Virus record (IMG/VR): IMGVR_UViG_3300025104_000002
Coordinates: 1-51,786 of that record
Length of the DNA: 51,786 nucleotides
Source of the DNA: a virus
Strand: one strand, 5' to 3'
The notes below the pieces were generated by a model, which was not told the origin of the DNA, did not search any database, and saw only the letters and a list, made by a program, of their open reading frames with translations. Every line of letters starts with the position of its first letter. The first letter of the stretch is position 1. A program made the position numbers and the translations under genes. Of this stretch, positions 149 to 33,909 are shown in pieces.

Positions 149-1654
149 CTGCGCGCATACATGGACGAGTTGCGGCAGAAACGTGCGATGACGAACCTAT
201 ACGCCACGATGGGTTGGAAGGAGAACTTCTCCCAGTTCGTCATTGGTGACACGATTCTGCGCCGCAACGCTGATGGCTCCGTCAGCGAGGAATCAATCGC
301 ATTGGCGTCCGGCTCGGCCCGACTCGGCCACGAGTTGTGGGGCACCGCTGGGTCGCTCGATGCTTGGGTCAACTTCACTTCTCTGGTCGCCAAGGCCGAC
401 CTTCGTGCCCACATGTTTGCGCTTGCCGTGGGTCTGTCCGGCCCGCTGTATGCGTTCACTGGCCTCAAGGGTCTGACCATCTCGCTGTACGGCCCGACAG
501 GCGGCGGCAAGACGCTGGCCCAGATGTGGATTCAGTCCATCTACGGCAACCCGGAGAAGCTGCACTTCGCAGCCAAGTTCACCCAGAACTCGCTGTTCGG
601 TCGCATGGGTCTGTACTCTCACATGCCCATGACCATCGACGAAGTGACCATGATGGACGACCGCGAGGTGGGCGACTTCGCATACTGGGTCAGTCAGGGT
701 CGTGACAAGGCGCGGATGAACCGCAACGCTGAGGAGCGTGACGCGAAGACGTGGGCACTGCCAGTGGTCGTATCCACCAACAAGTCCTTGAGTTCCAAGC
801 TGATCGCCAGTGGTCTGGACACCGACGCGCAGTTGGTCCGTATCCTCGAAGTCAGCGTACCGCCCAGCAAGATATTCACCAAAGACAGCACCGCTGGCCG
901 CAAGGTCTACGAGTTCATCACCAACAACTACGGTCTGGTCGGTCGGGAGTTTCTCAAGAAGCTGTTGGAGCTTGGTGACACCGGCATCCGTGCCACCATC
1001 GCGCAGGCCACCGAGGAGTTCCGCAGCAAGTACAAGGCCAACTTCACGGGCGAGGAGCGGTACTGGGAACAGGCCATCATCCTTGCCGACCTCGCCGCCA
1101 AGCTGGCAAAGGATTGGGGTCTAATCGCCTTCGACCACAAGCCCGGTATCGAGTGGGTTCTGGCTCAGGTCGGTGCCATCCGCCGCGCAGTGGCTGAGTT
1201 CAAGGTCGATGCGTTCGATCTGCTGACCGAGTATCTGAACGAGAACGCCGACGCCACGCTGACGGTGACGCAGACCGGGGCGAACAAACCCGTCGTGGAC
1301 TTCAGCCGCCTCCCCCGTGGTGAACTGCGTGTTCGCTTCGAGATGTATCGCAAGTCAAACGGCGACGCGTTCTCACGAGGTGTCGTGTTCCTCGACCGCA
1401 CCCACTTCCGTCGCTGGCTGGCCCAGCGCGGCGCGGACTACAAGACGTTCATGGGTGAGTTGCAGGAGGAAAACGTCATCGCCACGCCGAAGTCCAACAA
1501 GGCGTACCTCGGCAAAGACTCCCCGATCAAGCTGGGTCAGTCCTATGTGATCGGCGTGAACCTTGCGCACCCACGGTTGCAGGGTATCCTGAGCGACGCA
1601 GACCAAGCCATCGAGGACTTGGCCTACGGTCAACTCAAGTCGGTCACTCCGTGA
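1..1654 (+). CDS. Primase-helicase, C-terminal part (DUF927 helicase)
   Basis: This is the 3' part of the gene that begins at 50443; codons are in phase from base 2 and the joined product would be about 949 residues. The segment carries a P-loop ATPase with Walker A GPTGGGKT (about residues 563-570 of the joined protein) and an acidic Walker B-like stretch, MTIDEVTMMDD. This matches DUF927-type helicase domains, which follow primase domains in phage and plasmid replication proteins. The predicted role is unwinding ahead of the phage DNA polymerase. An internal ATG at 41 is not the true start, because the frame is open upstream and continues at the other contig end. The gene ends 11 nt inside the 3' end of the convergent virion gene. 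Confidence 0.88.
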   Translation, partial: HWNRPHVGWQELTMRQALLTEGHRDFPTVLADQGIVLNNRNQTGYFQTMLRAYMDELRQKRAMTNLYATMGWKENFSQFVIGDTILRRNADGSVSEESIALASGSARLGHELWGTAGSLDAWVNFTSLVAKADLRAHMFALAVGLSGPLYAFTGLKGLTISLYGPTGGGKTLAQMWIQSIYGNPEKLHFAAKFTQNSLFGRMGLYSHMPMTIDEVTMMDDREVGDFAYWVSQGRDKARMNRNAEERDAKTWALPVVVSTNKSLSSKLIASGLDTDAQLVRILEVSVPPSKIFTKDSTAGRKVYEFITNNYGLVGREFLKKLLELGDTGIRATIAQATEEFRSKYKANFTGEERYWEQAIILADLAAKLAKDWGLIAFDHKPGIEWVLAQVGAIRRAVAEFKVDAFDLLTEYLNENADATLTVTQTGANKPVVDFSRLPRGELRVRFEMYRKSNGDAFSRGVVFLDRTHFRRWLAQRGADYKTFMGELQEENVIATPKSNKAYLGKDSPIKLGQSYVIGVNLAHPRLQGILSDADQAIEDLAYGQLKSVTP

Positions 1655-4600
1655 CGCCGTACAGGTCGAGAATCTGCTGAGTCTCGGGCCGCATCGCTTT
1701 CGGTGCGGCCCTCAAGTACCGCTCGGTGGCAGTCCGCTGGGCCTCACGCAGTGCCCGGTTGACGCCATCCTCGAAGTTGCGAATCTCAAGGCCGGTACCC
1801 TTGGCCGCTTCGTTCCAGTCCTTGACCATCTCCATCACTTCGCGGGCACGTTCGTTGTCCTTGGCGATCTTGGCCCCGACGTACATGCCTCGGTACATGG
1901 CGGCAACATCCTTCTGGTAGTCACCGATCCGCTTGGACAAGCGAACCACGTCGTTCTCGGCCACGGCTGAGGCAGGGTAGAAACCCAGCGCACGGGTCAG
2001 CATGGTACCAAGATGCAGGTCGTTGCTCACCACGTAGCCCTTCTGGCTGACGATGGCCCCGGCGTTGTTGTAGGCGTACATGTCGCCCAAAATGCGCAGG
2101 AACGCGACCGGCGACTCACGCAGAATCTTGTTGAGTGATGTGACATCCGGCAGGACACCGACAGTCTCCAGCCCATACTTGGTCAGGTCAGCACCCATTG
2201 CCACAGCACCTTGCAGGAAGGATGCCACCGGGCCAGCGATCTCGATCAGTTCACGCCCCACGTCTGCACCGGCCAGCGCAATGCCGGTGCCGGGGATGAT
2301 GTTGGACAGCGACACCCGGTCGGCCACGTTGGCTGGCGTGATGGTGTTGAGCAGACCGCGCATGAGGATCGGGGTCATGCCGGGAGCGATGGCGTCCAGT
2401 GCTTCAGCCAGCGTCTTCTCGGCGCTGCCCTTCCACACGGCACTCGGGCCAAGCCCAAGTCCTTGGGCGATGGTGTCGATGATGTCCATCAGGTCTTCAG
2501 CGAAGGGCAGACCCTTCAGACCGGCGAACATGGCGAGGATGCCCAGCGCCAGCAGTTGTTCCTTGCGCGGCAGCGCGGCCAGCATCTGAATGCTGTTGAC
2601 CGGGAACATCTTGAACACGAACAGGAACTGCCGCACGTCACCACGGAACATGGCGGGGCGGTTGAACATCGCGTACTCACCGAGCGTGTTGTCGATCATG
2701 TCCACGGCGAACTTGTCGGCCACCTCGAAAGCTGTTGCTTCGTCCTTGCCTTCCGACAGGGCGCGTGCATAGGCCATGCGGAACGCTGCCAAACCTGTTG
2801 CTCGGCGGCTGTGCTGCTCGGTGTAGTTGAACAGCGACATCCACGTCTCAGCCGCCTTCTTGGACAGACCAGAGCGGAACTTGCCTCGGGCAGAACCCAG
2901 CAGCGAGTTGGTCAGCGCGGCCTGCATGGTGCCACCGCCAACTTCCTTCTGCATGAAGCGGGCCTCAGCCTCGGTGAACCCAGATGCAGCCAGCTTGGCA
3001 GGGTCGGCCAGCAGGTCATCCCAGAACTTCACCTCGCTCTGACCGAAGCCCTTCGTGGCACCGATGGCGCGGGAGACTTCGACCGCCGACATACCCCATC
3101 CGAAACCACCGCCGAAGGCGTTCTTCTGGTTGTACCCAGCGAACGCGGGCAGCACGTTGGTCGCCAGCGCGAGGTAGTTCAGGATGGCCGTGGCAAACGA
3201 CGCACCCATGAAGCCGAAAGTTGTTGCCGTGCGGATGAACGACGCAGCTTCGCCCGACGCGAAATCGGTGTAGTCCACGTTGGACTGGGACTCCATGAAG
3301 GCCACGGCGCGACGGCCACGATCCTTGTAGCGATTGCCCATGATTGGCGATTCTTTGATCACGAACGTGAAGTGGTAGTCGTCGAACTCCCGCTTGGCCG
3401 CGAGCTTCGCAGCTTCGGGCATGTTCGGGTCTTTCTCGGCGGCTTCCCACGCAGCCTTGCGGCGGTCATACTCCACCTTGTCACCGAACCACAGGCGGAT
3501 GGAGTCTGGGTCGTTGTCGTCGAACAGGCGGTCGAGGCGGTGCCGGTTCTGCTTGCGGGCCACAGTGGACGCAGTTGCCTCAAGATGCTGCGACACGTAC
3601 TTGATGGTGTTCGGGTCTTCGCCCGGAGTGCCTGCACGCTTGAGGCGGGTACGCGCCTTGGCGTTCTGCTGGGTCAGACCGACGATCAGGCGCTCACGTT
3701 CCTCCGGCGTGATGCTGATGGAGAACCGGGTGATCGCGGAGATGATTTCGTTGAGGTTGGCCTCAGCCGTGGTGGACACGGTTTCGCGGGCTGTCTCGGC
3801 TTGCGCAACAAGTTTGACCTTCTTGATCACAAACTCAGTACCGTCCAGCACCTCCATCTCGAAGCCGCCTTCGACACTATCGAACAGCCCTTGGACACGC
3901 TCAGCTATCGCCTCGGCTTCGGCGCGGCTCTCGACCTGCACGAACAGAAGCTGCTGGCGGTACTGATCCGACACCTTGAAGACGCGACCCGTGCGGGGGT
4001 CAACGGCTTGGATACGCACCTGCCACGAGCCCTCACGACCGAACGGCACGTAGCCACCAGCGATGGATCGTTTGGCGAGCAGTTCAGCATCGGTCTTGCT
4101 CAACTCGAACAGCGCCAGATTCTGGATGGCCTGCTGCATGGCAAAGCGGTCGGGGCCGGAGCGCGGGATGTTGGAGCCTTCTTTCAGCGCCTCGATACCT
4201 TTGAACACATCGTCAGCCTCGGCCTGATCGAAGAAGTCCTGCACGTCCTTGTTGCGGTCGGTGTCGCGGCCCAGCACAGCGGCGTTGAACTTCTTGATGA
4301 AGTCGTTGGCAGCGGCCACGGACTCGCGCTTGGTCAGCATCACGCCACTGTCGTCGATGGTCGAACCCTCGGCCCGCAGGGACAGGTACTTGTCCTCGAT
4401 CTTCTTGAGAAATGCCTTGTCGTTCTCGGTCAGGGCACGACCGAGGAAGCGGGCCACAACACGTTCCACGTTGTCACGCTCACCTTTGGCCGCAGCGAAG
4501 TTCGCCAGCAGCATGTCGATGGCCGACTTGTTCATCGTGTCGCGCACCTCGTTGTACATGATCCACTCAAGGCTCTGCTCGGTCAGGTCGGGCATGGCGG

Positions 4601-7600
4601 GGAACGTCTGCTCCACCTCCTCAAGGTAGGACGGGGCGTCGATGCGCTTCTGGTACTCACGCTCGATGGCCTTGCGCTCCTTGTCGTTGGTGGCGAGGTC
4701 GATCTCACGATCACGCTCGGCCCGCAGGGCGGTACGGCGCTCCTCGGTCATGGGGCGCGGCACGGCGATGGTGTACTTGATGCCCTTCTTGAAGTCCTCC
4801 AGCGTGAACTTGCCACGGGCTGACAGGATGTCGAACACTTCTTGGTTCAGGCGAGCTTCGCCACCCTCGATGGTGATCAGGCTACCCATCTTGCGCAGTT
4901 CAGCTTCGGTCAGGTCGCCCAGCTTCACTCGGCTGGTTACGTTGAGCATGGCCGACGTGCGTGCGATCTGCGCCTCAGTGGCACCCTGCGTGAGTCCACG
5001 ACCCAGCACCTCCACAGCAGGAGACAGAACGGTGCTCATCATCTTGTTGTACTGCGCACGCAGTTGCGCTGCGGTCTTGCTGGTGTCGCGGAAGATTTCG
5101 TACAGGCGGCGGTAGCCTTGGTTCTCCCGCGCTGCGTAGTTCATCGTCTTGAGTTCGCCCTTGACTCGATCCCACACGTCTGCAATGTTGATGCCACGAT
5201 CCTTGACCTGCTGGAACAGGTTGGAGATGTCGAACAGCTTGAAGCTGCGCTGACCGAAGGCATTGGCTGCCGCCACCCGGTTGATCTCGTCGTAGTACTC
5301 ACCGGCCAGCGCGAAGCGGCCAGAGCCATCCGGGTCGGTCATACCTTCGATTGCAGCCATACGCTGGGCCATTACCCGGAAGTCCACGAAGCTGCCACTT
5401 GCTGCACCGTTGCGGACGTAGCGGCGAGACTGGCTCACGAGGTAGCGGGCAATGTCGTCGTCGAAGCGCACACCGAGCTTGTTCAGCGCGTTCTTCACGG
5501 CGTTCCAGAACCGGGCGATGATGTTGGTGTCCAGCATCCCGGCGAAGTCAGCGAGGTATTCCTCAGTGGCCTCACGGCGCGACATACCACGTGCCTTCAT
5601 GGCAGTGTCCACCGCAGCCTTGACCTTGGCGCTGGAGTTGTAGACCGCATCGAGCGCGGCGTTCAGTTCCCGCTCAGTCATCAGACCCCGGAAACCGAAG
5701 TGGCCCAGCGTCTCATGCGCCAGCACGAACCTCAGTTGCTGCTCGGTGGCAACCCGGTCAGCGAAGATGATGACGTTGCCGTCACCGAAGGAGTAGCCCA
5801 CGGCGTTGGCAGTGTCGAAGTCACCCTGCGGGCGCGAGGCTGCGGCCTGCGCATACAGCTTGGGGTTTTTGGCCTTGAAGTCCGCTTGGTTGCGGTAAAT
5901 CTGCACCTTGGGCTTGACGCCCAGCTTGGACAGGAAGGCACTCACCAACATCTTCACACGTCCCAGCGGGATCGGGTTGTTGATCGGCGTGCCGTCGTCG
6001 CGGAAGTAGCGACCATCGCCATAGTCATCGTCGCGACCAATGTTCCAGTCGTCCAGCGAGAACGGTGCCTCGTAGTCTTCGTCGGCAGCGATGTTGTCCT
6101 CGTCGATGATGCGCTCACGCTCGGCGCGAACGTCGTCGGTCATCTCCTCAGTGCTCACACGGAACAACCCCTTGACGGTACCAGAGTATGGGTTGCCATC
6201 GGCGTCGAAGTAGTCGGCCAGCATGTTGCCGTTCTGATCGACGAACAGTTCCATGTCCGCAGCACGGACAGCGGCCCACATATCGCGCAACTTCTTGTTG
6301 GCGTTCTCGCGCTGGGTCTTGTTCAGCGGAACCGTCTTCGTGTTGAGGCTCTTGATGTAGTCGGCCAGCGCGATGGCCGGGTTGCTGCGGGTGTCGTTCT
6401 TCAGGTTGGCGTCGGCTTTGCCGATGATGCCGCTGGCGGGGCCAACACTGGTCTTGTACTTCTTGGCCGTGTCCGCAGGCAGGTTTGCCACTCGCAGTTG
6501 TCCTGCGTCGAGCAGCTTGGTGGCGGTTTCAACCGACAACCCCTTGACCACGGTGGTGATCTGCGGCAGCAGGCCGCGCTGAGTGGCGTAGTCGAACCAC
6601 GGCTTGGACGCACCCTTGGTGGTGCCACGGGTGTAGACCGCTTCAACAGACGGCAGCGCATTGACCAGTTCGACCAGTGCAGCGTCGATGGCGTTCTGCT
6701 GGGCATCCGTGAACACAGTGTTCGCCAGCAGTTCGCGGGCACGCAGGACTGCGGCCTTCGTGTTGGTTTCCTCGCTGGTGAGGTAGGCAAACTCCACCAC
6801 GGTCCTGATCGCATCGCGGAAGTCGCGGATGTCAGTTGCCTCCTCGGCAGCAGCGAACTCGCTGTTGACCAGTTGCAGCGGGGTTTCCTCGATGTCACCA
6901 ACCAGTTGCTCGGCACGCTGCATGGTGGCCTTGCCCTCGGCCACGTCCTTGCGCCACTGGATGCGGACAGGTGCGGGCAGATCGTCGAACGCCGGAGCGC
7001 CCTCGGGCTTCATGTCCTCCCATGCTTCGGCAGGTGGAAGGGCTTCAACCTTTACCGGAGCGGGAGCGGCGGCGGGTGCCGTCGCGGCTTTTGGGGCGGG
7101 AGGAGTCTCATTCTTGTCCTTGCCCTTGTCCTTGCCGCGCTTCAGCGTTTCAGCTTTTGGGGCGGGAGTGGTCGCCTTCTCGCCAGCTTTCTTGGTCTTG
7201 TCGCGCTTCAACGCAGATTGAACAGCGGGTCGCTGCGCTTGCTCTTTGGCTTTGAGGGCTTCACCTTTTCTGGCAGTTTGCTTGTCGGTGGGTACTTCTG
7301 CTCCCACTCCTGCGCCAGTTTGGGATGCTTGGCGTGCAGGTACCGGCGTTGCGCTTGACTCTTGAACGGCACTTGGCGTCTCCCTGACGTTGATCTCCGC
7401 AACTGGGGCACCTTTCTTCAAACCACGAGCACCAGCAGTCCTGGTGGCGCGGGGCTTGGGCTGCGCAGGCGGCAACTTGGTTTTGACCCCCGCAGCACGC
7501 AGAGCGGCTACGCTCGGCTCGCCCTCTTGGGTGAACAGTGGAATCTGGGCACGGCGCTGGGCGGCGGTCTGAGGAATCTCGACCAAGGCTACGGGTAAAC

Positions 7601-9749
7601 CCGTACCCACGCCACGGCGCAGACCTTCGGCACGACTGGGCACCGGAGCCTGACGGCGAGTGAACAGGGGCAACTGCACCGGCTGGGTCGGGCCAGCTTG
7701 GCGCATGGGCATCGGCTGCTGCGGGACATCCTGTTGCTGTGCCTGTTGCAGCGTGAACAGGTCGCGTGCGTTCGCACTCTGCCGCGCAAGCTCCTCAGTT
7801 TGTTGTTGGATGAGTGCTTGCTGCTGAGCCTGCGCCGCCTCGAACTCGCGCTGACGCCGGATGCGGTCTTGGATGACCTGCAACTGGTTCGCCATCTGAG
7901 TGTTGAAGGGACCAGTGGGCGCAAGACCAGCAAACTGGAGCGCACCTTGGCGCGGATCGGCCTGCATGATCGGGGTGGGCGCGGGCGGTTCAGGTAGCGG
8001 AGCCTGCGGCTGCATCCGCGAAGCCAGTTCTTGGGCCGAGATTTGACCACCGAAGACATCCAGCACCCCTTGGGTACCGGGCGCACCGGGCGGGACATTG
8101 CCCTGCTGGCGCAGCATCTGGTCGGGGTAGGCCACAGCATCCGGCCCCATGCCAGCCATGATGACCGGGCCACCCATCGGCGTGACGGGCGGTACCGGGC
8201 CAGGAAGTTGGGGTACAGTGGTGGGGCCAGCCAGTTGCGCCGGAGGAGCAGCCATTGCCCCCATCGGAGTGACCGGGGTGTAGTACGGCTGAACCGCCGT
8301 GCCAGGGCCGGGAGGTTGAGTCTGGGGGGTCGTAGCCAGCGCACCACCGGGGGTTGGATCAGGACTCTGGGCCGGGTTGAGCAGGTTGGCAGGCTGCTTG
8401 CCACGCAGGTTGGCGACAGCACCGATGGGGCCACCGACACCGAAGCCAGCGGCGAACGAGTTGATCAGGCGGTTGACGTTCTCAGGCGACCCGAAGTCTT
8501 GGTCGGACAGCCCCAGCAGCAGAGCTTCCTGACCGAGTTCCGTGGTGCCTTCAGCAGTACCGCCAACCAGACCACCCACAGCGCCACGCTTGAGTAATTC
8601 GCCAGCCCGACCCACCAACGTGGGGGTCTTGGTAATGGTCTGGGTGCCACCGGGGATGGTCTTGGTAACGGAGGAACCGACCCCCATCGGGGCAGGAGCG
8701 CCCACACCCTTGAACACACGGGCTGCCAGCAGGAACTCGGGTAGCGTCTCCATGACAGCGTAAGGCACCGAGCCAGCCAGCGCCGTCAAGCGGGCGTTCA
8801 CATCGTCAGCATCAGCACCTTGCTCACGCAGTTCGCCGTAGATGTCAGCAGCACCCGTGGCAAGGTTCTGACCGTAGGACGCAGCCACAGCACCAGCGAT
8901 ACCGGCTGCTTCACGCAGCAGTTTTTGTTCTGCGGCGTTGAGCGCCTGCCCTTTGGCCTGCTTGGCGAGCGCAGACTTGACGCCTTCCTTCCACGCGGCT
9001 TTGCCCAACATGCTGGAGAACGCAGCGGCAGCACCGCCGACCGGGGTACCGGAGGCAGCGGCACCAGCGAGGAAACCGAGGCCCGCCGTGGCAATGGACT
9101 CGATTATGTTGGGGCCTTGCTGGGCAAAGTTCGCCACCAGCCACTCGACTGCACCGCGACCGGAGTCAATGTCCGTGAACTGGCGTTCGTATGGGCTGGT
9201 CTTGCGCAGGTCTTCCATTTGCTGGGCGACGATGCGACCACCCAACTCCTCGGCACCGGCCAATTGCAGACCGCGACCAGCCAACATCTGCATGACATCG
9301 ACACCGCGACCGAAGTTACGTGCCGCCAGTGTGCCCAGCGAGGGGTTCTTGATGGCCTGAACCAGTTGGCCGTAGGATTGGACGTCCAGCGGCACCCAGT
9401 CGCCGTCAGTGGGCAGCCCCGTGGGGGGGCCACCGAGTAGGCTCTGGGCTTCAAGGATGCCCTGTGCGTCGTCGGCATCGAGGGTGACGCCTTGCACGTA
9501 GAGTTGGTTGCGGGAGCGACTGAACGCAATCGACGGTTGCACCATCTCCGGCATGGTGAACTGATTTTGACGGGCAAGCTGGACACCTAGCCCACCCATC
9601 ATTGCCAGCGTGGACAGGTCGTCGCGCAGCGCGTCAGAACCCGACGCCGACGCTGCGTTCTGAAACCCGAACGGATTTACAACGGCAGAAGGGATGCCGT
9701 TTGCATCCTGATACAGAGGGTTTTCAAACGACAGTCCATTGGTTGCCAT
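1644..9749 (-). CDS. Giant polyvalent virion protein (2701 aa) with metallopeptidase-like motif
   Basis: This is the largest gene in the genome and the last of the late block. It fits the large polyvalent proteins that podoviruses are thought to carry in the virion and deliver into the host. Visible parts in order are a Gly/Ala-rich hydrophobic stretch near residues 215-300; a long Pro/Gln-rich low-complexity region around residues 450-750; a Lys/Ala/Pro-rich linker near 800-900; a zincin-like HETLGH at about 1345-1350 with a possible third ligand in EEYLAD near 1396; Lys/Arg/Glu-rich helical segments; and a C-terminal region with hydrophobic helices (FAGLKGLPFAEDL). HETLGH has one more residue than classical HEXXH, so peptidase activity is inferred. 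The mosaic architecture and position after the transglycosylase support an ejected internal protein. Two very long open frames on the opposite strand are codon-bias shadows. Confidence 0.85.
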   Translation of the reverse strand: MATNGLSFENPLYQDANGIPSAVVNPFGFQNAASASGSDALRDDLSTLAMMGGLGVQLARQNQFTMPEMVQPSIAFSRSRNQLYVQGVTLDADDAQGILEAQSLLGGPPTGLPTDGDWVPLDVQSYGQLVQAIKNPSLGTLAARNFGRGVDVMQMLAGRGLQLAGAEELGGRIVAQQMEDLRKTSPYERQFTDIDSGRGAVEWLVANFAQQGPNIIESIATAGLGFLAGAAASGTPVGGAAAAFSSMLGKAAWKEGVKSALAKQAKGQALNAAEQKLLREAAGIAGAVAASYGQNLATGAADIYGELREQGADADDVNARLTALAGSVPYAVMETLPEFLLAARVFKGVGAPAPMGVGSSVTKTIPGGTQTITKTPTLVGRAGELLKRGAVGGLVGGTAEGTTELGQEALLLGLSDQDFGSPENVNRLINSFAAGFGVGGPIGAVANLRGKQPANLLNPAQSPDPTPGGALATTPQTQPPGPGTAVQPYYTPVTPMGAMAAPPAQLAGPTTVPQLPGPVPPVTPMGGPVIMAGMGPDAVAYPDQMLRQQGNVPPGAPGTQGVLDVFGGQISAQELASRMQPQAPLPEPPAPTPIMQADPRQGALQFAGLAPTGPFNTQMANQLQVIQDRIRRQREFEAAQAQQQALIQQQTEELARQSANARDLFTLQQAQQQDVPQQPMPMRQAGPTQPVQLPLFTRRQAPVPSRAEGLRRGVGTGLPVALVEIPQTAAQRRAQIPLFTQEGEPSVAALRAAGVKTKLPPAQPKPRATRTAGARGLKKGAPVAEINVRETPSAVQESSATPVPARQASQTGAGVGAEVPTDKQTARKGEALKAKEQAQRPAVQSALKRDKTKKAGEKATTPAPKAETLKRGKDKGKDKNETPPAPKAATAPAAAPAPVKVEALPPAEAWEDMKPEGAPAFDDLPAPVRIQWRKDVAEGKATMQRAEQLVGDIEETPLQLVNSEFAAAEEATDIRDFRDAIRTVVEFAYLTSEETNTKAAVLRARELLANTVFTDAQQNAIDAALVELVNALPSVEAVYTRGTTKGASKPWFDYATQRGLLPQITTVVKGLSVETATKLLDAGQLRVANLPADTAKKYKTSVGPASGIIGKADANLKNDTRSNPAIALADYIKSLNTKTVPLNKTQRENANKKLRDMWAAVRAADMELFVDQNGNMLADYFDADGNPYSGTVKGLFRVSTEEMTDDVRAERERIIDEDNIAADEDYEAPFSLDDWNIGRDDDYGDGRYFRDDGTPINNPIPLGRVKMLVSAFLSKLGVKPKVQIYRNQADFKAKNPKLYAQAAASRPQGDFDTANAVGYSFGDGNVIIFADRVATEQQLRFVLAHETLGHFGFRGLMTERELNAALDAVYNSSAKVKAAVDTAMKARGMSRREATEEYLADFAGMLDTNIIARFWNAVKNALNKLGVRFDDDIARYLVSQSRRYVRNGAASGSFVDFRVMAQRMAAIEGMTDPDGSGRFALAGEYYDEINRVAAANAFGQRSFKLFDISNLFQQVKDRGINIADVWDRVKGELKTMNYAARENQGYRRLYEIFRDTSKTAAQLRAQYNKMMSTVLSPAVEVLGRGLTQGATEAQIARTSAMLNVTSRVKLGDLTEAELRKMGSLITIEGGEARLNQEVFDILSARGKFTLEDFKKGIKYTIAVPRPMTEERRTALRAERDREIDLATNDKERKAIEREYQKRIDAPSYLEEVEQTFPAMPDLTEQSLEWIMYNEVRDTMNKSAIDMLLANFAAAKGERDNVERVVARFLGRALTENDKAFLKKIEDKYLSLRAEGSTIDDSGVMLTKRESVAAANDFIKKFNAAVLGRDTDRNKDVQDFFDQAEADDVFKGIEALKEGSNIPRSGPDRFAMQQAIQNLALFELSKTDAELLAKRSIAGGYVPFGREGSWQVRIQAVDPRTGRVFKVSDQYRQQLLFVQVESRAEAEAIAERVQGLFDSVEGGFEMEVLDGTEFVIKKVKLVAQAETARETVSTTAEANLNEIISAITRFSISITPEERERLIVGLTQQNAKARTRLKRAGTPGEDPNTIKYVSQHLEATASTVARKQNRHRLDRLFDDNDPDSIRLWFGDKVEYDRRKAAWEAAEKDPNMPEAAKLAAKREFDDYHFTFVIKESPIMGNRYKDRGRRAVAFMESQSNVDYTDFASGEAASFIRTATTFGFMGASFATAILNYLALATNVLPAFAGYNQKNAFGGGFGWGMSAVEVSRAIGATKGFGQSEVKFWDDLLADPAKLAASGFTEAEARFMQKEVGGGTMQAALTNSLLGSARGKFRSGLSKKAAETWMSLFNYTEQHSRRATGLAAFRMAYARALSEGKDEATAFEVADKFAVDMIDNTLGEYAMFNRPAMFRGDVRQFLFVFKMFPVNSIQMLAALPRKEQLLALGILAMFAGLKGLPFAEDLMDIIDTIAQGLGLGPSAVWKGSAEKTLAEALDAIAPGMTPILMRGLLNTITPANVADRVSLSNIIPGTGIALAGADVGRELIEIAGPVASFLQGAVAMGADLTKYGLETVGVLPDVTSLNKILRESPVAFLRILGDMYAYNNAGAIVSQKGYVVSNDLHLGTMLTRALGFYPASAVAENDVVRLSKRIGDYQKDVAAMYRGMYVGAKIAKDNERAREVMEMVKDWNEAAKGTGLEIRNFEDGVNRALREAQRTATERYLRAAPKAMRPETQQILDLYGVTE

Positions 9750-29375: not shown

Positions 29376-29436
29376 GAATCCCTCGGAGGGAGGGCAGGGA
29401 GGTGACAACTGCTGAAGAAGCAGCGACGACATCATA

Positions 29437-31689
29437 TCACGTCCACCCCGCCGCAGGCAAACGCTTGATCTCGCGCCGTCGTTGAATAACACCGCCCTCA
29501 GATGCGTTATGCAAATGGAGCATCAGGTACTGCAAGGCTTCGGCCACGTGCGAGTGCTTGTTCTTGTCGATGTCGCCTTCGCCCTTGGGTTTGAAGCGGT
29601 ACCCGCCCATCATGGCCGCTTTGAGGTGCGTGCAGCGCGGATCGACAAGGAACGCCGGGTCGCCGTCCACCTGCCGCATTAGGTACTCGTCCACGGCGTT
29701 GATGCGGGCCGAGATGTTGTTGGTCTTGGCCGGGATGACCTTGAACCCCTCAGCTTTGATGATGTCCACCGCGCTGCGCTCGTCAGTTTGGGCACGTTGT
29801 ACCCCTGCGGGGTCAACGACGATGAGGACCGGGGCACCGGGGAAGCGTTCGTACAGCAGGGGGCGCAGCACCGTGCGGACAAACCGCTGGATGCCCATGT
29901 CGAAGCTCACCGCTTCGTCGAGGATGAGCGCCCGTCCACGGGGGTCTTGCTGCCCGATCACAGCCGCAGGCGTCAGACCCAAGTCCATGCCGATGACGAT
30001 GGGCCGCACCCCGTTGATAATAGGCCGGATGCGCTCCTTCGCCATGTGGTAGTCTGGTCGGAAGTACTTGTACACCGGCATCCCTGCGGATGACAGCCCG
30101 TACTCACCGTCGATGTAGACCCGGATGTACTCCTCCGAGCGACCCTGCGTATCGTAGTACCCGTCCGGCAGGTTCTCGATGTTCTCGGCGTAAGGGCTGC
30201 GGCCCGAGGGCTGCTTGAACACCTCCCACCCGTTGTTGTTGGGTGACACCCCATCTTTGGGATCGAGGTGTTCGAGTTGGTAGTACCACCACGTGTCCAT
30301 CGTCGGCGGGTTGGTGTCGCCCCACATGCCGTACCACGTCGGCCCGCCGTCCTTTGCAGATGGGTACCGCCCGATCCGCTTACTCATCGCATCCACGATG
30401 TCCGGGTGGATGTCGCGGCATTCGTTGAACCACGCGAAGGTCAATTCCAACGAGTTCAGGTTCGCCACGTCATCGGCATCGTCCAGCGCCCGGAACATGA
30501 TCTCGCACTCCACGTCGCCCACCTTGAAGAAGTAGGTCTTCGTGGTCTTCAGGTACTCGCCACACACACCCGGTGGGAACCAGTCGAGGAACGTCTTGAT
30601 GGTCGTGTCCTGCAACTGGCGAGCGGTTTCACGGACGACGGCTGCACGGGTCTTGCGGATGCCGTTCGCGTTGGGTGCCTGCATGGAGGCACGACGCACG
30701 ATCTCGAACGAACAAGTCACGCTCTTGCCTGAGTTGTGGTGAACCGTCCCATCCACAGTCACATAGTTGTTGGTATCGAGAACCTGCATATCCCAATACA
30801 CCTGCTTGAAAGGCAGACGCTCTATGGATACAACGGTCCCGTCGGACACGGAGTTTCTGTATGAACGCGAACACGCAGCGAATAATCGAACTTTCCAACG
30901 GGCAACGCTCGTCCGTAGAGATCGCAGAGCTTGTCGGGCTTTCCCCTCGCTACGTTCGGAAAGTAATGAAGAAGTTCGACCTCCCGCGTTTTGGAGAGGG
31001 TGCTCAGTCGGGATCACGCAACCACCAGTTTGTGTCTGGACGGCGAGTTGACCATGATGGCTACGTCCTAGTAGCCGCCCCCAAAGACCACCGATACGCA
31101 CGGCAACCGTCTGGGCGAAAGACGAAAGTAATTTTCGAACACCGGCTGGTGATGGAGCAAAAGCTGGGTCGATATCTGCTTCCCGAAGAAGTAGTTGACC
31201 ACGTAGACGGGCTGACTCTGCATAACGCGCCAGATAATCTACGGCTGTTTGCGTCAAACAGTGAGCATCTGGCTCAGACTGCGACAGGGCCGCGTATGTG
31301 GTCTCCAGAGGGGGCGAAGAACATAGGTGCAAGGACTGACCGGGGCGTAGAGATTCAACGGGTTGATAGCTATGGTCAGCGCAGAGCACGCGGTGAAATC
31401 CGGCTGCAACAAATTCTCCTCGCAGCGTTGTCACTCGGTATAGATAGTCCTTTCCTTTTGGGAACGCACCGCCACTTGGAGAAAGCTGGTATCGACCCGT
31501 CTTGTCGTTCCAACTTAGAACGCGCACTGGCCGATCTATACGCTCGATGGGGATGGCCCCCTCCTCAGTTTGGATAAGGGTACCACCTGCGACACAGCCG
31601 ACCGGCCCCATGAGGACGCGCATCTTGGCGTCCGAGGCCATGAACTTCCTGCCGGTGGGCGGGGGTGTGTAGTTGATGTCAAGCGGCAT
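29437..31689 (-). CDS. terL: Large terminase subunit containing an intein
   Basis: The precursor is 750 residues. Removing the intein (residues 32-319) leaves a 462-residue terminase, a normal size. The splice joins GPVG to SGKS and so rebuilds the Walker A motif GPVGSGKS, meaning that ATPase activity depends on splicing. The extein then shows a Walker B region (LELTFAWFNE), a PFAM terminase-type arginine-rich segment and a nuclease domain with IGMDLGLTPAAVIGQ and LIVVDPAGV carrying the metal-binding Asp residues. The enzyme translocates and cuts phage DNA during packaging. The gene follows the small terminase and overlaps a 62-codon gene at its start by 1 nt. Confidence 0.92.
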   Translation of the reverse strand: MPLDINYTPPPTGRKFMASDAKMRVLMGPVGCVAGGTLIQTEEGAIPIERIDRPVRVLSWNDKTGRYQLSPSGGAFPKGKDYLYRVTTLRGEFVAAGFHRVLCADHSYQPVESLRPGQSLHLCSSPPLETTYAALSQSEPDAHCLTQTAVDYLARYAESARLRGQLLLREADIDPAFAPSPAGVRKLLSSFAQTVAVRIGGLWGRLLGRSHHGQLAVQTQTGGCVIPTEHPLQNAGGRTSSLLSERSEGKARQALRSLRTSVARWKVRLFAACSRSYRNSVSDGTVVSIERLPFKQVYWDMQVLDTNNYVTVDGTVHHNSGKSVTCSFEIVRRASMQAPNANGIRKTRAAVVRETARQLQDTTIKTFLDWFPPGVCGEYLKTTKTYFFKVGDVECEIMFRALDDADDVANLNSLELTFAWFNECRDIHPDIVDAMSKRIGRYPSAKDGGPTWYGMWGDTNPPTMDTWWYYQLEHLDPKDGVSPNNNGWEVFKQPSGRSPYAENIENLPDGYYDTQGRSEEYIRVYIDGEYGLSSAGMPVYKYFRPDYHMAKERIRPIINGVRPIVIGMDLGLTPAAVIGQQDPRGRALILDEAVSFDMGIQRFVRTVLRPLLYERFPGAPVLIVVDPAGVQRAQTDERSAVDIIKAEGFKVIPAKTNNISARINAVDEYLMRQVDGDPAFLVDPRCTHLKAAMMGGYRFKPKGEGDIDKNKHSHVAEALQYLMLHLHNASEGGVIQRRREIKRLPAAGWT
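30806..30834 (+). promoter_or_regulatory. Possible promoter for antisense HNH gene
   Basis: TTGAAA (30806-30811) and TACAAC (30829-30834) are separated by 17 nt, a five-of-six and four-of-six match to sigma-70 boxes, about 27 nt before the HNH start codon. It lies inside sequence that encodes the C-terminal splicing blocks of the intein on the opposite strand. Its function is inferred only. Confidence 0.25.
30861..31577 (+). CDS. HNH homing endonuclease antisense within the TerL intein
   Basis: The 238-residue product has an N-terminal HTH (SVEIAELVGLSPRYVRKVMKK, about residues 18-38) and a full HNH nuclease region at about 90-140: EHRLVMEQKLGRYL, VVDHVDGLTLHN and APDNLRLF, supplying the H..DH..N..N/H pattern of phage HNH endonucleases. 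A C-terminal region of about 100 residues ends near ARWGWPPPQFG. The start is supported by CGGAG 7 nt upstream. The whole gene lies inside the intein DNA (30733-31596) on the opposite strand, leaving 19 nt at the block A end and 128 nt at the block F/G end. First codon positions face first codon positions; the second of each gene faces the third of the other. It is likely the homing nuclease that spreads the intein. Confidence 0.9.
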   Translation: MNANTQRIIELSNGQRSSVEIAELVGLSPRYVRKVMKKFDLPRFGEGAQSGSRNHQFVSGRRVDHDGYVLVAAPKDHRYARQPSGRKTKVIFEHRLVMEQKLGRYLLPEEVVDHVDGLTLHNAPDNLRLFASNSEHLAQTATGPRMWSPEGAKNIGARTDRGVEIQRVDSYGQRRARGEIRLQQILLAALSLGIDSPFLLGTHRHLEKAGIDPSCRSNLERALADLYARWGWPPPQFG

Positions 31690-31877
31690 CAGTGCTCCCT
31701 GAGTTCGCCAGACTCGTACTTCTCACGCTGGTCGAGCGCGTTGTGGATGATGACACACGGTTCTTCCTCGTCTGGCGTCGGGTGGCACCAGCAGGCAATG
31801 CTTGTCTCGTGCTCCCGCAGATCGTTCAGTGGCACCACGTGGATCAGGTCATCCGTGCTGCGGTACATGGACTTCAT
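31689..31877 (-). CDS. Small Cys/His-containing protein upstream of terL
   Basis: The product is 62 residues. It contains IHVVPLNDLREHETS followed by CWCHPTPDEEEPCVIIHNALDQRE. This short conserved-looking pattern is one I associate with small proteins near phage terminase genes. The Cys/His residues could bind a metal. The gene overlaps terL by one base and the gene upstream by 29 nt. Function unknown. Confidence 0.6.
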   Translation of the reverse strand: MKSMYRSTDDLIHVVPLNDLREHETSIACWCHPTPDEEEPCVIIHNALDQREKYESGELREH

Positions 31878-32073
31878 CCGGGCCTCCTATCAGCAAAATA
31901 ACAAACTCACGACCACGCTTCTTGGACCGGGTAATGTGCGCCCGGTACGACTTACCCTGCCGGCGGAGTTCATTCTCCACGGTGATGGCCTCACTGGCGC
32001 TGCGCAGCTTCAGGGCCTTGAAGCCCTCGTAAGTTTGGGTGAACAGTTCTTCAATGTTCGATGGCAGTTGCAT
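31849..32073 (-). CDS. Small basic protein in terminase cluster
   Basis: The product is 74 residues with a helical N-terminus (IEELFTQTYEGFKALKLRS) and a strand-rich basic second half (KSYRAHITRSKKRGREFVILLIG). It overlaps both neighbours, TerS and the 62-codon gene, which fits tight late-operon packing. A nucleic-acid-binding role is possible from its charge but unproven. Confidence 0.5.
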   Translation of the reverse strand: MQLPSNIEELFTQTYEGFKALKLRSASEAITVENELRRQGKSYRAHITRSKKRGREFVILLIGGPDEVHVPQHG

Positions 32074-32712: not shown

Positions 32713-32800
<88 letters not shown>

Positions 32801-33402: not shown

Positions 33403-33909
33403 ATGAACTACGAATTCGTTCCTGGCGACACCATCGAAATCAAGTCCGGCAAAGTCCTTCACAGGATCCGGGCTACAACTTATATTGAGCCGCAAGGTGT
33501 CAAACCCGGCAATCTCGGCGGGTACATTGAGAGCTCTAGAAACCTCTGCGGCAACGCCTGGGTCTGCGGCGAAGCCCAGGTCTGCGGCAACGCCCAGGTC
33601 TGCGGCAACGCCCAGGTCTGCGGCAACGCCCAGGTCTGCGGCAACGCCATGATCAATGAGAACGGTCTCATCTTCTGGGCTTCGAAAGTGGGTAGTGAGA
33701 ACGGAACGCTCACGGTCTACAACACGACGTCCAACGAGCTCGAGGTGACGCGCGGCTGTTTTAGCGGCTCGGTCGATGATTTCTTAGCCGCGTCCAAGGC
33801 TAAGCACGACGACGACACGCACCGCGAATACCGGCTGCTGATCGAGGTCGCTGTGTCTCGCATCACACGCGCACGCGAACGGCTGGAGCAAACACGACCG
33901 AGAAACTGA
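33403..33909 (+). CDS. Left-handed beta-helix-like repeat protein
   Basis: The 168-residue product has an N-terminal beta segment with LHRIRATTYIEPQGVKPGNLGGYIES, then six consecutive hexapeptide rungs of the form QVCGNA (about residues 50-84), and a charged helical C-terminus. Hexapeptide repeats of this type build a left-handed beta-helix. The LGGYIES start is a pattern I recall from phage and prophage proteins of unknown function. The rungs are encoded by perfect 18-bp DNA repeats. GGAG lies upstream of the start. Confidence 0.75.
   Translation: MNYEFVPGDTIEIKSGKVLHRIRATTYIEPQGVKPGNLGGYIESSRNLCGNAWVCGEAQVCGNAQVCGNAQVCGNAQVCGNAMINENGLIFWASKVGSENGTLTVYNTTSNELEVTRGCFSGSVDDFLAASKAKHDDDTHREYRLLIEVAVSRITRARERLEQTRPRN
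33577..33648 (+). repeat. Four perfect 18-bp tandem repeats
   Basis: The unit CAGGTCTGCGGCAACGCC is present four times without mismatch, preceded by two diverged copies. Each unit encodes one beta-helix rung, so copy changes keep the reading frame and only lengthen or shorten the helix. Perfect identity implies recent expansion. Confidence 0.95.

Follow-up and report, generated by a model that had tools for sequence, protein, structure and literature searches.

The gene for the large terminase subunit (terL) of the virus analysed here is interrupted by an intein whose DNA carries, on the opposite strand, a complete gene for an HNH endonuclease. The window, that is, the entire stretch of DNA that was analysed, covers positions 1 to 51,786 of the IMG/VR virus record IMGVR_UViG_3300025104_000002. 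Recurrence of this arrangement in more than 170 distinct viral sequences implies that one DNA stretch keeps two unrelated proteins working, the activities of both being inferred. The reading favored here, to which a probability of roughly 80% can be assigned, is that the HNH protein is a homing endonuclease uncoupled from the intein, which would be made from an antisense transcript with its own ribosome-binding site and would cut intein-less terL genes, so that the intein is copied into them. Homing activity and cutting at the Walker A codons are inferences, in the absence of cleavage, transcript or splicing data.

Organization of the terL locus

The terL precursor matches PF04466 (3.9e-5), phrog_2 (8.2e-26) and TIGR01547 (3.8e-8), and its extein is up to 91% identical to those of intein-less relatives. 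Comparison with such empty alleles shows that the intein junctions are exact and the insertion is codon-precise at Walker A; the joined flanks yield GPVGSGKS, the sequence seen in intein-less relatives. The intein protein begins with CVAGGTL and ends with VDGTVHHN. The HNH ORF begins 128 bp away from the 3' end of the intein and stops 19 bp inside the 5' end, thus spanning the linker and splicing blocks A-B and leaving only blocks F-G uncovered (Table 1). A first-pass annotation of this DNA had placed the 238-codon HNH ORF wholly within intein DNA on the opposite strand, with a Shine-Dalgarno sequence 7 nt before the ATG and with the first codon positions of the two genes facing each other. 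The coordinates, the ATG start and the GGAG motif agree with this description. Codon position 1 of both frames falls on coordinates divisible by 3, so that the frames face each other in the pattern 1:1, 2:3, 3:2, and the second codon position of each gene is set against the third position of the other.

Table 1. Features of the intein-bearing terL locus (window coordinates)
Feature	Position	Strand	Remarks
terL precursor ORF (extein + intein)	29437..31689	-	750 aa, PBSX-type terminase large subunit
Intein	30733..31596	-	864 bp, 288 aa; between 4th Gly and Ser of Walker A (GPVG|SGKS)
Intein N-terminal splicing region, blocks A-B, about residues 1-96	31309..31596	-	opposite HNH C-terminal domain
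Intein linker, about residues 142-246	30859..31173	-	opposite HTH and most of HNH core
Intein C-terminal splicing region, blocks F-G, ending HHN	30733..30858	-	outside HNH ORF
Antisense HNH endonuclease gene (predicted)	30861..31577	+	238 codons plus stop, ATG; PF13392, phrog_10730
Shine-Dalgarno-like GGAG	30850..30853	+	7 nt upstream of HNH ATG
N-terminal HTH-like DNA-binding segment of HNH protein, residues 17-41	30909..30983	+	HTH matches in homologues; predicted helices
HNH catalytic core, residues 93-136, EHRLV ... VVDHVDG..LHN..DNLRLF..N..HL	31137..31268	+	
HNH C-terminal helical domain, residues 137-238	31269..31574	+	dual-coding with intein blocks A-B

The two proteins

The intein has all of its splicing residues (C1, H68 of block B, HHN at the C-terminus and S+1), and family profile searches matched no nuclease family in the intein frame, so that the proposal of an intein that keeps its splicing residues without an in-frame nuclease stands and the criterion for an in-frame homing endonuclease is not fulfilled. 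The class 1 terminal residues (C1, HHN, S+1) are invariant across the alignments, as is H68; the block B Thr that is usual in inteins is not conserved, being replaced by A or N. In the homologues L300, L348 and L350, PF14890 scores over its cut-off. The AlphaFold2 model is mostly above pLDDT 90 for about residues 1-96 and 246-288, and is disordered (pLDDT 30-50) along the linker, about residues 142-246. A Foldseek search recovers the Hint fold, with matches to the mini-inteins Ssp DnaB, Npu DnaB and Mtu RecA (E 1.7e-7 to 1e-5; TMt up to 0.86, for the Mtu RecA intein). Within 29400-31900, Rfam showed no group I intron or other structured RNA, even with matches up to E 1 allowed. On these features, the intein is predicted to be a complete Hint splicing domain that interrupts the TerL Walker A motif; splicing itself is inferred.

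The HNH protein matches HNH_3 (PF13392; 5.3e-7, 29.6 bits against a curated cut-off of 24.8) and, over residues 3-230, phrog_10730 (4.3e-55). PF13392 is matched at E up to 0.001 in 54 of the 56 HNH homologues, and H94, R95, H114, D116, N122, N126 and H136 are invariant in all 56, the window included. The predicted structure is folded end to end, with the C-terminal helical domain included (mean pLDDT 87). Helices are predicted near the N-terminus at residues 18-25 and 29-38, and the N-terminus of some homologues matches HTH_29/28/23/24. The best fold match is 1u3e (I-HmuI), a weak one (E 0.047). By prediction, the protein is a member of the HNH_3 / I-HmuI-like group. Sites with at least four Shine-Dalgarno bases accompany 97 of 160 HNH homologues, compared with 36.5 expected from shuffles; no sigma-70 promoter or terminator scores above chance in window positions 30500-31800, and none lies near the HNH start.

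Distribution of the antisense-HNH intein

Profile searches in three rounds, each with an HNH set more distant than the last, yielded 223 classified loci, 175 of them distinct. The antisense 1:1 frame is open across the whole HNH match in 174 of these 175 viral-contig relatives, which answers the call of the first-pass annotation for terminase inteins with HNH similarity on the reverse strand; the remaining two antisense phases are open in only 2 and 1 of the 175. The ORF opposite HNH exceeds 350 codons in 172/175, and in most loci an HHN or NHN splice end before the P-loop [ST]GK[ST] is directly readable. All 27 of the first-collected intein-bearing TerL loci carry the antisense HNH, in the same phase. 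The host genes represent several TerL families, one SNF2 helicase (L350) and one TraG-like ATPase (L345), and the P-loop is interrupted at two or more different points, G|SGK and, in L340, L343, L348, L349 and L357, GK|S/T. In the SNF2-type helicase locus (L350:972-3473, minus strand), the antisense-HNH intein lies in the Walker A motif. Outside of viruses, searches of bacterial genome contigs recovered nothing but one identical copy, located in an actinobacterial MAG bin, and searches of plasmids only short core matches.

Among cultured phages, the carriers are the Pectobacterium phages Koroua, Ymer and kin, and Pseudoalteromonas phage PHS3. In the Pectobacterium phages, the precursor is annotated as 'hypothetical protein' and the HNH gene is missing from the annotation; in PHS3 (KX912252.1, 17336-19400), the HNH gene is present and terL is given as a truncated ORF, although the opposite strand of this region holds a single uninterrupted terL with the intein in it. 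The HNH gene stays hidden because gene callers allow only one of two fully overlapping ORFs.

An intein-side search with patterns from the C-terminal blocks, which lie outside HNH (YWD[ML]QVL and DTNNYVT), yielded 57 complete inteins, all without stops. Full-length HNH is present in 55 of the 57; in the remaining ones, L223 and L224, the 5' half of HNH has been lost. Further shrunken copies are found in L257, L286/L287, L295 and L296/L297. In these inteins, of 199-226 aa, the 5' half of the HNH gene is gone and the intein frame is still open. L295 equals the full-length L171 in protein and DNA across the compared N-terminal codons, so the deletion in L295 is recent. Relaxation of the HNH frame in the shrunken inteins is in the expected direction (SN/NS 1.67 vs 1.17), but on numbers so small that it carries no weight here. 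In one locus (L308:2501-3052), the intein-side frame is interrupted inside the HNH match and HNH is intact, a possible frameshift or assembly error. Another locus (L368:2501-2938) encodes a seemingly free-standing HNH that is close to the antisense group and faces no long ORF in the 1:1 phase.

Selection on both strands

Substitutions over 22 independent pairs up to 30% diverged were sorted into four classes, according to whether they alter or leave unchanged the residue in each of the two frames. Because hardly any site in the 1:1 phase is free to change silently in HNH and intein alike, the linker and the extein served as neutral yardsticks. Over HNH residues 42-136, the dN/dS-like ratio in the HNH frame is 0.16 (0.12-0.22) and that of the facing intein linker is 1.09 (0.85-1.36), that is, neutral; over residues 137-230, the HNH ratio is 0.36 (0.28-0.47) and that of the facing intein blocks A-B is 0.45 (0.36-0.59). 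In the terL extein, the same estimator gives 0.083 for the true frame and 1.39, unconstrained, for an invented antisense frame. Neutral decay of the HNH frame among homologues, which the first-pass annotation had named as grounds for refutation, is accordingly not what is seen. Changes that alter the intein and are silent in HNH run at ~0.7-1.6 across most of the linker and at 0.09-0.34 across blocks A-B; those that alter HNH and are silent in the intein run at 0.06-0.27 along HNH and climb to 0.89 immediately beyond the HNH ORF, in blocks F-G. As estimated from these substitutions, the HNH frame is under purifying selection throughout, and the intein frame evolves neutrally where it faces the HNH core and is constrained where it faces the HNH C-terminal domain. 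Along that domain, ~94 codons are thus constrained on both strands. Long antisense dual coding that can be tested statistically, with purifying selection on both frames, is rare, and the present locus provides a case of it.

Alternative explanations

Either frame could, in principle, be a mere shadow of the other. The chance that the HNH frame is an accidental antisense ORF opposite the intein is negligible in our assessment. With the intein protein fixed and the synonymous codons redrawn, an antisense run of at least 255 codons remains open in 1.9% of the draws, a figure that is modest on its own; it is homology and selection that decide against chance. An accidental ORF would not be expected to show an HNH_3 motif, a full-length family, a fold and selection in its own frame, or a core far more conserved than the intein linker that faces it. 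Selection on the HNH frame, together with the open same-phase frame in 174/175 relatives, leads to rejection of this candidate. The converse, namely, that a free-standing HNH gene was inserted with its minus strand passively open, leaving terL in two pieces, is very improbable: such a history would fit the neutral, disordered linker opposite the HNH core and the annotation of PHS3 with a truncated terL beside the HNH gene, but not the block A, B, F and G residues at both ends with a confident Hint fold, the absence of stops in 57/57 complete inteins, the low rate of intein-changing substitutions over blocks A-B compared with most of the linker (0.09-0.34 against about 0.7-1.6), or the codon-precise insertion at Walker A. 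The notion of the intein as an artefact of an inserted HNH gene was rejected on the strength of the stop-free inteins, the fold of the splicing halves and the constraint on blocks A-B. As to antisense shadows elsewhere in the window, the 8.1-kb gene at 1644-9749 (minus strand) has very long ones, up to 894 codons stop to stop, and these lie in the mirrored phase, as the first-pass annotation had maintained; the maximum of about 94 codons that it gave for the phase used by HNH did not hold, the longest stop-to-stop run being 128 codons.

Granted that both frames are genuine, the role of the nuclease could be other than homing. Beside many phage terminases are encoded HNH proteins that aid cos cleavage, and HNH proteins near terminases are a known packaging type (PMC11855218). 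The antisense protein, which shows strong conservation and in most loci accompanies terL, might be a DNA-packaging accessory nuclease of this kind that is kept for the needs of the phage. This appears unlikely considering that near relatives with an intein-less terL have no HNH at that position, that HNH moves with the intein into the SNF2 helicase and the TraG-like ATPase, and that several loci have lost HNH by deletion while terL is still intact. It is similarly doubtful that the intein is a relic, with HNH no longer active and the frames conserved merely by recent descent. Shrunken copies (L223, L224, L257, L286, L295, L296) indicate that decay does occur; nevertheless, HNH core ratios of 0.1-0.16 between pairs up to 30% diverged and the invariance of the catalytic residues in the 56 homologues, the window among them, are hard to reconcile with an inactive protein.

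Mobility and a proposed homing cycle

On a tree of TerL exteins (a quick tree with long branches), the window gene is nested among empty alleles and the presence of the intein is scattered, with at least 5 changes needed. In three pairs, divergence at fourfold sites is 0.20-0.23 in the intein vs 0.53-0.56 in the host gene (p 1e-4 to 6e-6). The antisense-HNH intein also crosses TerL families and gene types (the SNF2 helicase and the TraG-like ATPase). The patchy distribution and horizontal spread that characterize homing elements are thus met by the tree, the divergence and the empty-allele comparisons.

Under the homing interpretation, the late terL message, read from the minus strand, would give the precursor, from which the 288-aa intein, with its floppy and functionless linker, would be spliced out to leave intact TerL. 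An antisense transcript would provide the HNH protein, translated from its own ribosome-binding site. In a mixed infection, this protein may bind and cut the uninterrupted Walker A codons of an intein-less terL; its own terL copy is proposed to be protected because the intein splits the cut site. Repair of the break would then copy the intein and the nuclease gene together into the cut terL. The antisense placement might uncouple the dose and timing of the nuclease from the late structural gene; the homing genes of T4 are also timed apart from their hosts (PMC2988022).

Relationship to known systems

In the usual view, an intein consists of a splicing domain and an optional in-frame nuclease domain. 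In-frame homing endonuclease domains of inteins are LAGLIDADG or, in the intein of Dalgaard et al. 1997, HNH (cited in PMC8966425). Such domains occupy one conserved site (PMC6801210), and the TerL inteins of mycobacteriophages are among the inteins that have them (PMC5050341). The intein described here resembles these in the Hint domain, the insertion at the TerL P-loop/active site, the position of the nuclease gene between blocks B and F and the patchy distribution; in them, however, the nuclease forms part of the intein polypeptide as one of its domains, whereas in the window it is a separate protein encoded on the opposite strand and overlapping blocks A-B. HNH nucleases hidden within phage methylase genes, the ShiLan domain and the Pacc40 insertion, are encoded on the same strand, out of frame and without an intein (PMC11855218). 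As in the window, the host ORF reads through the hidden HNH without stops, and the window HNH core and the ShiLan-type core are distant relatives (41% over 82 aa). The ShiLan/Pacc40 elements use a shifted frame of the same strand and have no intein or intron, in contrast to the opposite strand and complete intein of the window; with an intact Hint domain, the criterion for a ShiLan-type element (same strand, no splicing domain) is not met.

The antisense homing gene I-DsqI, located in a nuclear group I intron, is expressed and active (PMC9548176). In both cases, the homing nuclease gene lies on the strand opposite to the splicing element, separate expression being demonstrated for I-DsqI and inferred for the window. 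The I-DsqI gene is housed in a loop of an RNA ribozyme, without protein-protein dual coding, unlike the window, where the Rfam search detected no intron RNA. For PHROG_10730, the match to the window HNH is end to end, and the link to an intein on the opposite strand is unrecorded there.

In the fractured genes of Dassa et al. 2009, a free-standing nuclease gene reportedly separates the two parts of a split intein. There, as here, the nuclease is encoded apart from the intein that it presumably mobilises, but the host gene is in two pieces joined by trans splicing, whereas in the window an unbroken intein ORF shares its DNA with the nuclease gene. Among the open-access papers searched, subscription papers not being covered, none was found to describe an antisense nuclease within an intein. 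In the large class formed by the present sequences, the opposite strand encodes the nuclease as a protein of its own, and the codon phase is always the same. Empty alleles, shrunken copies and a clade without the C-terminal extension offer natural controls, which make testable the persistence of homing nucleases, the protection of a selfish gene by overlap with an essential one and the origin of folded antisense products.

Origin of the overlap

Free-standing phage relatives of HNH share the HTH-HNH part only, and their antisense frame is closed by 3-17 stops. For the HNH C-terminal domain, tblastn at E up to 10 gave no significant match outside the antisense-intein phages. In a distant antisense group (L298-L300, L302), HNH stops 187-208 bp before the first codon of the intein and therefore does not reach block A. 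In a tree of HNH cores, the antisense copies cluster (3 changes vs 9.5 in shuffled data), but the deep split is weakly supported (61), so a single origin of these copies is likely without being established. This pattern suggests that the antisense gene may have arisen first in the linker and, in the clade to which the window belongs, later been extended across the splicing domain, an order that is only inferred because a lost free-standing source of the C-terminal domain is not excluded. Whether the C-terminal domain emerged by overprinting, that is, whether a linker-borne HTH-HNH gene lost its stop and grew a folded, selected domain from the antisense of the Hint region, we consider an even bet. 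If so, ~94 codons would encode two folded proteins on opposite strands, and an indel in one gene would break the other; the nuclease would thus be tied to a gene that is essential and would drop out of the homing cycle more slowly.

Elsewhere in the window, there are two minor features. One is a run of 22 perfect tandem copies of ACGC (32713-32800) between the late and early gene blocks; the other is a set of six near-perfect 18-bp repeats (33545-33648) within an ORF on the plus strand (33403-33909), in which they encode CGNAQV hexapeptide repeats.
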